From contig NC_084676.1 in NCBI RefSeq assembly GCF_028389875.1, positions 1,922,001 to 1,986,000 on the forward strand: a stretch of DNA of 64,000 nt, read 5' to 3'. Below, piece by piece: positions 12,266 to 63,370 of the stretch. The stretch comes from Rhea pennata (taxonomy: Eukaryota > Chordata > Aves > Rheiformes > Rheidae). Within the stretch, counting starts at the first letter, position 1. Each line of letters opens with the position of its first letter. A program made the position numbers and the translations under genes. Under the pieces are notes generated by a model. That model did no database searches and was not told the origin of the DNA. It was given only the letters and a program-made list of their open reading frames with translations.

Positions 12266-26816
<14,551 letters not shown>

Positions 26817-48389: not shown

Positions 48390-57690
<9,301 letters not shown>

Positions 57691-57778: not shown

Positions 57779-58100
57779 GGGCCCCGCCCCGCCCCAACCC
57801 CCGCCGGGCCCCGCCCCAACCCCCGCCCCGCCCCGCCGCCGGGCCCCTCCCCGCCCCGCAGCCGGGCCCCGCCCCGCCGCCGAGCCCCGCCCCAACCCCC
57901 GCCGGGCCCCGCCCCAACCCCCGCCGGGCCCCGCCCCAACCCCCGCCCCGCCCCGCCGCCGGGCCCCTCCCCGCCCCGCAGCCGGGCCCCGCCCCGCCGC
58001 CGAGCCCCGCCCCAACCCCCGCCGGGCCCCGCCCCAACCCCCGCCCCGCCCCGCCCCGCCGCCGGGCCCCGCCCCGCCGCCGGGCCCCGCCCCTCCCTAG
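57779..58100. repeat. GC minisatellite with 120-bp period, about 2.7 copies
   Basis: The 60 bases at 57841-57900 recur without change at 57961-58020, and those at 57787-57840 recur at 57907-57960. A third, shortened copy runs to about 58100. Inside each copy a smaller motif GCCCCGCCCCAACCCCC repeats about every 24-29 bases. The minus strand is strongly G-rich with many GGGG runs. It begins 88 bases upstream of the FCHSD1 start codon. Confidence 0.93.
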
Positions 58101-59458: not shown

Positions 59459-59564
59459 ATGTATTTTTTGCCGTCGCCCGGCTCTGCTGCCATCTACGTC
59501 TCCCTCCTGCTTGGCTGCACCTGGCTCTGCTCAGCTGTCGAACTCCCCACAGCTAAGCGCCCTG
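59459..59564 (+). CDS. PAR-like receptor exon 1 (signal peptide), inferred
   Basis: Encodes MYFLPSPGSAAIYVSLLLG, then CTWLCSAVELPTAKRP; a hydrophobic core and a likely cut after CSA. The donor is CCTG/GTAGGT. It ends one base into a codon, exactly what exon 2 needs. No better signal-peptide exon with matching phase was seen between here and 62345. Confidence 0.65.
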
Positions 59565-62500
59565 GTAGGTCTCTCGCTCCCTTTCCGGGGAATGTCCTTC
59601 TTGGGGATCTGGTTAAAGAAGGTCAGGAAGGGCCGTCTGGCTGAGGTGGGGGTACGTGCCAGCTGGGAGACGATGGGGCAGGACAGGAGGGACATGGACC
59701 ATATGGAGGCTGGGATATCCCAATACCATGTCACTTGGCACTTGGATGGGAATTGCTGCCTGTTACCGAGATGGGTTGGGGGACAACTCTGCCGCTTTTT
59801 CTGGGTCTTTTTACTGTCCATATTGAAAGCTCAAGTGATGACCTGAAACGCCGCTGCTCTTCCCCTCCCTATAGCAGCAAAAATAAAATTATTGCTGTTG
59901 TAACCTGAAATTTCCCCTGCCTCCTTCGCGAGTGGAGAGGGCAGAGACGGCAGCATTTGCAGGAGGCTGTTGGACACAGCTGGGCCTTCCTGGTGCCCTA
60001 GACCTCAAGTGTCCTGGGGACCAGCTGAAAGTCTCTGGGATTTCAGAGCTGGGGTGGTTCATTTCAGGCTAAATTGGAGCCACCAAACTTTCTCGTAAGT
60101 CCCACATCTGAACACGTTGTCCTGGAAGTGGTCTTGCACGGCACGTCGTGCCCTGCGCCCAAGCCGGTGTGGGTGACTGCTCTCAGGAAATCTCCGCGTT
60201 GTTTCCCAGTCCCAGAGCGGGAGGCAGCGATTCACGACCGCCACAGCTCCTTGGACCCAGCTGTCACGGCAGACTGGGCTCATCGTGTTCGAGCAGCCAG
60301 GATGGTTGTCACTGCACGGGCTCGCTGTGTGCCCGCTCAAAGGGCAACGTGGTGCCTGCGGGTCCGGGGCTGCGAGGCGGCCCTAGCGCAATCCGGCAGC
60401 CGTGGCAGGGCTTGGAAAGCCGAGGAGCTGCCTCAGTGAGAGCTTTGCAGAGGACCGCGCGGGTCGCTTGGGACAGCTGGCCGCCCCGTGCACTCAGGCT
60501 CGAGGAACCACCTTCGCTGTTCCCTGGGGCCGTGCATTAGCAGTGCATGTTGGCAAGTGCCAAGGAGTGTTAACATCTAGCCCTGGCAAAACAGGCTCGG
60601 GGGGGGGTGGGGGGGGGGGGCTGTGTCTCTCTGGGCAGCCCCTGAGCTGGGAGCAGTGCAGTGGGGTGGAAGGGAAGGCTTTAGGAAGGGTATGTTTAGC
60701 TCTGTTGTAGGAGCAGGAAGCGGACTTGCTCGTACAGGTACCAATGTGCGTCACGGTGACGTGCAGGGAGGCAGGGCCTGGTTGTGCTGTTAGAGTGAAA
60801 AAAACATTAAGAAAAGGGATTTGATCAGTGGGTTTCTTTCTTTCTTTTTTTTTCTTTTCCTTTTTTTTCCTTTTTTTTTTTTTTTTTTTTTGGGGGGGGG
60901 GGTGACCGAGGATCTTCCTGTTCTGTGCTTTTGCTCTGGGCACAGAGTGAGAAGCTTATGACCACAGGGAGCGGAGGGAGATCCGCATAGCCGTGGCTGA
61001 CGTGGGGTTGGGGTGGAGGGGGCCTGGCTGCCTGGGCCTGGCTGAGGGGAAGCGGCGAGAGACCCAGAACAGCTCAGGTGGCAGGGTGGGAACAGCTCTG
61101 TCCTGGCGTGGCTGGTGTGTCACATCTCCGTCAAAGGCCCGACACATGTAGGCTCTGGATGCTGCTGATTTCGGTGTTCGATCAGGCCACGAGGCTGCAG
61201 GTGAAGTCAAGCACTCCCACTGCTGCTTTTCACCAGCCGGCAGAGGCAGGGACCATATATTACTGGGGTGCTGCTGCCTCAGCAGAGACAGGATCCCTGC
61301 TTCTCCTCAGGCCACCCAACCCTTTTTGTACCCGCTACCTTTCTGGGGAGACACACTGTATGCTAGACCCAGCCAGTAGGTTTAGTGCTGGGGAGCCAGG
61401 GCAGAGTAGACCCCAAAGCCCTGAAAGGCTGGCATCACACCCCAGAGCACCTGGGCATGTTCACTGATGCTGTAGAGACCGTGCCAGGTCCTTTGGGTGG
61501 GATCCATGCCATGCACCCCTTTTCCTCCACCATCATGCTCCTCATGCCTCCCCTATCTGCCCCAGGCAGCCCGTCAGGCTCGCAGGGCCTCCTTTGGTTA
61601 CTTTTGCCATGAAGACAGACCAGGCACTGCTCCAGGATCTGATCTGCAGGTGTTCCTGGCACACACAGCTGGGGGAGCAGGATGGGGACCTGCATCTGAC
61701 ATGTGTTGTTCATGATTTGCTCTAGAGCAGGGCATGAGTGTGCTAGGAAAAGGGATGTTGTCAAGAAGATGGGACATGCGCATGTCTGCATGCATGTGAG
61801 CACCCATCTCAGGCTCCAGACAGGGTTACTGTTCCTCTCCAAGCCTGGCTGGGCTGGCACTGAGATGGCCGCGGTGCTGGGTGAGTGGCATGGCATGAGC
61901 AGGATATGGTGTGGCTCTGGGACAAGGGCAGCTTTGTGTCTCTGTGAACTTTCCTTGCTGACTACAGTGTCTTACTTGGAGATGTCACTTCTGCATGGTC
62001 TTTCACACTCACATGGGGCTACTGGGGGATGTGTGGGGCAGGAGGGAGACCCTTGGGAGTTATAGTGCTCCTCTGCTTAGCATTACAGCTTGGGAGCACA
62101 ATGCCAGCAAGAGCAGAGTTTGCCCCAGCTGAGGTACTGTGAACATCCACAGGGACCAGGATGTTAAGGACTAGGATGCAGAACTTCTGTGGGTCCCAAG
62201 CTGCCCTTTGCTGTTGACCAGGAAGATGCCAGCTCTTGCATTTGCTGGCTGCAGGGAGGAGTGACAGCTCCCTACATGGTCCCAAACAGGAAGGAGCAGT
62301 GGAAGGGTGCTCTCAGACAAAGCTAATTCCTTGTGTTCTTCTCAGTGCATGGCAAAGGACGAGTCTTGATCTCTCTCACTCCCCAAGAAGAAGCTGAATG
62401 CCCCGGCGCCTCTGTGGAAGCTTTTCTCAACAGCACTGTGACCACTCGTGTCCTCCCTGCTCTCTACTGTGTGATTCTGCTTGTCGGGCTGCCAGCCAAT

Positions 62501-63370
62501 GCTCTGGCCTGCTGGGTCCTGGTGACCAAGTTCAGGAGATGTTCCACCACCTTCTTCCTGCTTAACCTGGCCAGCGCTGACCTGCTTTTTGTCCTCCTGC
62601 TGCCCTTCAAGATCTCCTACCACCTCTTGGGCAACCAGTGGCTCTTTGGGGACTACCTGTGCCGCACCATGGTAGCCCTCTTCTATGGGAATATGTACAG
62701 CTCTATCCTATTTCTCACCTGCATTGGCCTGGAGCGCTGCATCTCTGTGGTGCACCCGTTCTTGTGGAAGGGGTCCAGGTGGATGTGGGGCAGGGTGGGT
62801 GTCTGTGTGGGGATCTGGCTGGCAGTGGGGCTGGGCATGAGCCCATTGCTCTTCAGCCCCCAGACAAAGTACATCTCAGGGCTGAACATCACTACTTGCC
62901 ATGATGTCCTAGACAAAGATGACCAGAAGTTCATGTTTTATTATTTCCTCTCCCTGGTAGGGCTGGGCTTTGGCATGCCCTTTGTGCTCATGATCATCTC
63001 CTATGGCTGCATCCTGGTGCGGCTGGTGGCCAAGAGGAGAAACTATGGGCACGTGGTACGTCTCCTGGCTCTGGTCCTCCTAGTCTTCATCCTCTGTTTC
63101 ACCCCCAGCAATGTACTGCTCTTTAACCACTATGTGCTGGGTGCCACAGGATGCCGCAACATCACCTACATCTGGTATGTCCTGGCACTGGTGCTCAGCG
63201 CCTTCAACACCTGCTTTGATCCCTTCATCTACTTCTATGTCTCCAGGGATTTTCGGGCCTACATCTGGGGTGAAGGCACCTGCTGCCCCAGGCAACTCAA
63301 GACCTCAACAAGGAAAGCCTCTGAGAAGGCAGCCTTGCCCCTGAGGTCCAGCGAGCAGAGCCAGCCCTAG
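59459..63370 (+). CDS. Protease-activated receptor (PAR)-like seven-transmembrane receptor, two exons, 376 residues
   Basis: A rhodopsin-class receptor. PAR receptors are switched on when a protease cuts the N-terminus and the new end binds the receptor's own core; they couple to Gq, G12/13 or Gi. Exons 59459-59564 and 62346-63370 join in phase 1. Features: signal peptide about 1-26; cleavage site GKGR41/V42 with possible ligand VLISLT, then acidic PQEEAE; LASAD in helix 2; C141 and C220 for the usual disulfide; N-I-T-T-C-H-D-V-L in loop 2, a PAR hallmark; CFTPSN in helix 6; DPFIY in helix 7; CC at the tail for palmitoylation. It resembles PAR2 and PAR3 most, but 'ERC' replaces DRY. Two-exon structure and intron place are as in known PAR genes. 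I assign no symbol because I know of no PAR gene at this location in mammals. The first exon is inferred; the second is firm. Confidence 0.85.
60599..60621 (+). repeat. G-run (poly-G interrupted once)
   Basis: A run of about 20 G with one T, inside the receptor intron. Confidence 0.8.
60836..60902 (+). repeat. Pyrimidine tract ending in a G-run
   Basis: A T-rich tract with scattered C, then an uninterrupted T run, then about ten G. It lies in the receptor intron. Confidence 0.85.
62346..63370 (+). CDS. PAR-like receptor exon 2 (tethered ligand, seven helices, tail)
   Basis: The acceptor CTTCTCAG precedes the base completing V36. One uninterrupted frame covers cleavage site, seven hydrophobic segments and a serine- and lysine-rich tail, ending at TAG 63368-63370. 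A sequon NST lies at 64-66 and another, NITT, in loop 2. Confidence 0.95.

Follow-up and report, generated by a model that had tools for sequence, protein, structure and literature searches.

A probable fifth protease-activated receptor gene between FCHSD1 and ARAP3 in the genome of Rhea pennata

Introduction

Protease-activated receptors (PARs) link clotting and inflammatory proteases to cell signaling. Four PARs are listed in the pharmacological guide (PMC13242166). A stretch of 64,000 nucleotides of Rhea pennata DNA, which is termed the window hereafter, carries a receptor gene of this kind beside FCHSD1, and the question arises whether it is one of these four in an unusual place, a receptor of another family, or an additional member. 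The gene holds an intact PAR-type frame that is distinct from the four known PARs, and it is highly probable that it represents a fifth PAR, probably F2RL4, namely an old paralogue whose likeliest sister is PAR4 and which is located between FCHSD1 and ARAP3.

Gene model and genomic place

The model of the gene, which is built from sequence alone, consists of two exons on the plus strand. Predicted exon 1 (59459..59564), derived from the spliced model and a ranking of candidates, provides the start codon, a signal peptide and the phase-1 donor CCTG/GTAGGT, which is followed by a single phase-1 intron (59565..62345) with the acceptor TTCTTCTCAG. The GT/AG join to exon 2 at 62346 gives a protein of 376 residues. 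Exon 2 (62346..63370), defined by its frame, structure matches and Pfam, encodes the putative protease site and tethered ligand, the seven helices and the tail, and ends with the stop codon. As the earlier note had described, it is an intact seven-transmembrane frame with PAR marks: the frame at 62327-63370 on the plus strand contains 347 open codons, scores 154.5 bits against Pfam 7tm_1 (cut-off 30.5), and harbors the three motifs NITTCHDVL, CFTPSN and DPFIY.

Exon 1 was selected from the combinations of a start codon and a phase-1 donor in the 57.8-62.3 kb region, which amounted to 19 candidates, 12 of them listed. With regard to the hydrophobic stretch, the start at 59459 ranks first. Its donor at 59564, scored with approximate weights, reaches 8.1, the top value among the ten most hydrophobic candidates, while a donor scoring 8.6 is attached to a far less hydrophobic one (12 of the 19 listed in each case). 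The resulting model follows the gene plan of PARs, in which exon 1 carries the signal peptide and one phase-1 intron precedes the cleavage site. This two-exon, phase-1 plan agrees with three of the four PAR genes found elsewhere in the rhea genome, since PAR1, PAR2 and PAR3 possess a good acceptor of equal phase at the corresponding place; the acceptor search in rhea PAR4 gave no convincing site for a comparison of intron phase. The acceptors of these genes were chosen by pyrimidine content and the comparison covers their acceptor side, with an equal-scoring second acceptor lying upstream in another phase in PAR1 and downstream of the cleavage site in PAR3.

The neighbors HDAC3 (12269-26816, minus strand) and an FCHSD protein were located by tblastn. 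The latter corresponds to the amino-terminal part of FCHSD1 (51564..57690, minus strand), which comprises the tblastn match at 51564-57325 and a first exon MQPPPRK that we assign to FCHSD1. It stands head to head with the receptor, which begins at 59459. The earlier claim of a PAR-like receptor adjoining FCHSD1 holds. The FCHSD protein is assigned to FCHSD1 rather than FCHSD2 because its neighbors are HDAC3 and ARAP3, in keeping with the human gene order. On the contig that contains the window (C14), two adjoining frames that start at C14:1993054, past the downstream end of the window, score 125 bits against the human ARAP3 RhoGAP domain and 36 against the next RhoGAP; the minus strand also carries an ArfGap exon at C14:1996609. 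With its stop codon at C14:1985370, the receptor ends about 7.7 kb from the nearest proven ARAP3 exon. It thus sits in the FCHSD1-ARAP3 interval, with ARAP3 as the next identified gene downstream; the order among the identified genes is HDAC3, FCHSD1, receptor and ARAP3, and the receptor is the only one of the four on the plus strand. The human FCHSD1-ARAP3 interval is not known to hold a receptor.

A GC-rich tandem array (57786-58097), composed of 2.6 copies of a 120-base unit with 95% matches and rich in GCCCCGCCCC boxes, lies immediately upstream of FCHSD1. In human, the FCHSD2/ARAP1 region, which is the sister region of FCHSD1/ARAP3, holds P2RY2 and P2RY6. A P2Y2-like receptor and another receptor match were noticed at G000:C1:214.60-215.69 Mb, with an ArfGap exon at a distance of about 1 Mb, and this segment is perhaps the counterpart of that sister region.

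Kinship to the protease-activated receptors

Among the best 60 of 658 matches to solved structures, the window receptor is closest to PAR4 (221 bits), PAR2 (214) and PAR1 (197), which are followed by P2Y8 (168), GPR183 (148) and P2Y4 (131); P2Y2 scores 113, and PAR3 is absent from these 60. Structures, Pfam and tree together characterize it as a rhodopsin-type receptor with seven helices whose sequence is nearest to those of PAR1-4. The signature of extracellular loop 2, NITTCHDVL (62885..62911, plus strand), found by alignment with human and rhea PAR rows, contains the CHDV of PARs and is identical in the PAR1 and PAR2 rows. Helix 6 starts with RNYGH; the corresponding residues are RRYGH (human PAR4) and KRYSY (rhea PAR4). 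Over 273 shared columns, the identity is 45.1% to rhea PAR4 and 42.5% to human PAR4, while the values are 44.0% (rhea) and 40.3% (human) for PAR2 and 40.7 and 41.8% for the PAR3 rows. Rhea PAR2 is thus almost as similar to the window receptor as rhea PAR4, which counts against the PAR4 sister relation. The end of helix 3, at 62732-62740, reads ERC and not DRY or DRF, a position that varies in other PARs too.

A cysteine in loop 3 (ATGC) occurs, among the PAR rows, in the window receptor and rhea PAR4 only, human PAR4 being without it. An exodomain cysteine (AEC; 62399..62401, plus strand), recognized from sequence and alignment, may be its disulphide partner. Rhea PAR4 likewise has both cysteines; the human PAR4 row comprises no exodomain.

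The genome itself (1.27 billion bases) was searched with the helix region at E <= 0.001, which gave 218 candidates, 135 of them scored, and 132 matches. The top five were the window receptor (658 bits), a gene on contig C27 (254) and three genes standing close together on contig C61 (230, 216 and 180), with the sixth at 154. Eighteen receptor frames were read out of the 132 matches and 15 of them entered the trees, L021, L022 and L025 being omitted; the rhea PAR rows are stop-to-stop frames, possibly with some intron, and the row of the window receptor is spliced. In the main tree of 20 rows, the C27 gene forms a pair with human PAR4 (99/97), and the C61 genes pair with human PAR3 (100/100), PAR1 (100/99) and PAR2 (100/100). 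The picture is unchanged without the human PAR3 row. Orthologues of PAR1-4 are therefore all present elsewhere in the same genome.

The window receptor falls outside all four pairs as sister to the PAR4 pair (89/87) and on a long terminal branch of 0.99. PAR4 is likewise its sister in all seven trees, that is, the main tree and six variants (core columns; without human PAR4; without rhea PAR4; without the P2RY8-like row; a simpler model; without human PAR3), with bootstrap values of 83-92 and SH-aLRT of 82-91, although the data behind the seven largely overlap, so that they do not count as independent, and the sister branch is below the program's mark for firm branches in each. The placement that would have made it a known PAR, inside one of the four clades with the normal copy missing, was looked for in the trees and not seen, and the suggestion of a PAR paralogue lost in mammals is partly supported by the position outside the four clades and by the PAR1-4 orthologues in the same genome. 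Since rhea and human PAR4 pair without the window receptor, the split would predate the parting of birds and mammals if the tree is right, and loss on the mammal side would be the simplest reading of this placement.

Other placements were weighed by AU tests, whose groups were picked after the tree was known. It could be supposed that the gene is the bird's true PAR4 (F2RL3), relocated, in view of the fact that its best solved relative is PAR4, but the C27 gene pairs with human PAR4 to the exclusion of the window receptor, which does not lie inside the PAR4 clade, and this reading, which we regard as very improbable, was rejected because both placements inside PAR4 failed (p 0.0115 for closest to the C27 gene, p 0.0101 for closest to human PAR4). 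A P2Y2/P2Y6-type nucleotide receptor, as counterpart of the P2RY2-P2RY6 pair that adjoins human FCHSD2, would suit the position, with FCHSD1/ARAP3 and FCHSD2/ARAP1 as sister regions; against it stand the scores of P2Y4 and P2Y2, far below the 221 bits of PAR4 among the best 60 of 658 matches, and the tree, in which the receptor does not group with the P2Y2/P2Y6-like rows. Grouping with the three such rows was rejected at p 4.85e-06, and the reading with it, as extremely improbable. Groupings with PAR2 (p 0.0273) and with the P2RY8-like row (p 0.0182) were rejected as well. The grouping with the PAR3 rows was not rejected (p 0.127), and the identity to these rows is near that to the PAR4 rows, both of which would accord with a PAR3-related paralogue, such as one that arose early by duplication of the F2RL2 line and works in the same way; the PAR4 sister relation in seven of seven trees and the PAR4-like start of helix 6 nevertheless speak against this origin, which we consider quite unlikely.

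The names P2RY8-like and P2Y2-like for receptors of the rhea genome are our own labels. In each of the six trees that include it, the P2RY8-like receptor (L013, G000:C1:143226001-143236000) takes a place next to PAR1 among the PARs, with bootstrap values of 54-84, and this position may stem from a long-branch effect or from real kinship to the PARs.

Cleavage site and proposed activation

The translation contains a putative trypsin-like cleavage site with a tethered ligand, GKGR/VLISLT (62351..62380, plus strand), which is the sole occurrence in the exodomain of K or R followed by a non-P residue and then F, L or Y. In a shuffle control, 37% of 10,000 shuffled exodomains carried at least one such site, and the case for a PAR consequently rests on kinship and gene plan rather than on the site. 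The corresponding sites in the rhea genome are SKGR/SFVG in PAR2, RGR/TFLM in PAR1 and SLIK/TFRG in PAR3, which lie 10, 11 and 15 residues, respectively, past the best-judged acceptor, all in equal phase, while that of the window receptor lies 5 residues past the splice junction. The human tethered ligands, freed by a protease, are SFLLRN, SLIGKV, TFRGAP and GYPGQV for PAR1-4 (PMC13242166), so that ligand position 2 is F, L, F and Y in these receptors and L in the window receptor. The exodomain after the putative cut is very short; the acidic stretch that follows the site is short as well (PQEEAE), and no clear thrombin-binding tract is seen by eye.

In the proposed activation, the signal peptide would be removed, a trypsin-like serine protease would cut after GKGR, and the new end VLISLT would fold onto loop 2 and the bundle of helices, whereupon the receptor would signal via G proteins. 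By analogy with SKGR/SFVG of PAR2, the activator is likely trypsin-like rather than thrombin.

PAR3 can act as a co-receptor, and it is conceivable that the window receptor is a PAR by descent which has lost activation by proteases and instead acts as a decoy or co-receptor or responds to a soluble ligand, its N-terminus and loop 3 being joined by a P2Y-type disulphide. The very short exodomain, the cysteines of exodomain and loop 3, ERC in place of DRY and a cleavage site that is alone no better than chance would all agree with such a loss. However, loop 2 has kept NITTCHDVL letter for letter as in the PAR1 and PAR2 rows, and the signal peptide is retained, as is a phase-1 intron ahead of a usable site, and we hold the loss of protease activation to be unlikely. 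The fuller form of the preferred reading, to which we give an even chance, is a fifth ancient class of PAR, kept in birds and amphibians and lost in mammals, which would be a working trypsin-type sensor that uses VLISLT as its own tethered ligand and combines a very short exodomain with a second disulphide on the extracellular side.

If this holds, PAR biology deduced from mammals overlooks one receptor of other tetrapods, and a fifth PAR alongside the other four would alter the comparison of haemostasis and inflammation between birds and mammals. VLISLT-amide is a ready peptide for testing the predicted tethered ligand.

Identity and comparison with known systems

In 2019, Rinne et al. mentioned, in one sentence, a PAR-type clade named F2RL4 near F2RL3 in an amphibian and five birds, and the abstract presents such clades as being without human orthologues (PMC6504862). 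If the window receptor belongs to this clade, the listing lends indirect support to its proposed absence from mammals. Five bird genomes are tabulated and no reptile is entered under F2RL4; in the passages on this clade a single accession, ENSXETP00000005770, is given, with no sequence or map place (PMC6504862). The clade itself has therefore already been catalogued, and what is new here is the place between FCHSD1 and ARAP3 together with the likely tethered ligand. In the 5.39 million papers searched, the name F2RL4 was found only in this paper and no study of the receptor emerged, although one under another name could escape such a search, and the description of the receptor as under-described in the earlier note is consistent with this single mention. 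Searches pairing F2RL3 with FCHSD1, and searches on PAR evolution and genome duplication, found nothing. The main text of a chicken thrombocyte transcriptome paper contains no F2R term, and a chicken fat RNA paper, in the one passage concerned, names F2R/PAR1 for chickens and PAR1 and PAR4 for human tissue. Scans for relatives of the window receptor gave 2 pattern matches in viral contigs and 26 in prokaryote genomes, none of which was confirmed. Sets of more than four PARs already have a precedent, given that 27 PAR-like genes have been reported in zebrafish (PMC2793433).

Among the known systems, the F2RL4 clade fits the window receptor in its PAR-type kinship and its occurrence in birds, from which we infer that the receptor probably belongs to it. 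PAR4 (F2RL3) is the closest relative by score and tree, with a similar start of helix 6 and, as in PAR3 too, a short loop linking helices 5 and 6, but it differs in its genomic place, in the longer exodomain of rhea PAR4, and in the tethered ligand, which is GYPGQV in human PAR4 against the putative VLISLT (PMC13242166). With PAR2 (F2RL1), the receptor shares KGR before the site, NITTCHDVL and CFTPSN, as well as the leucine at ligand position 2 (SLIGKV in human PAR2; PMC13242166), whereas the identity of 44.0% (rhea) and 40.3% (human) and the rejected grouping set the two apart.
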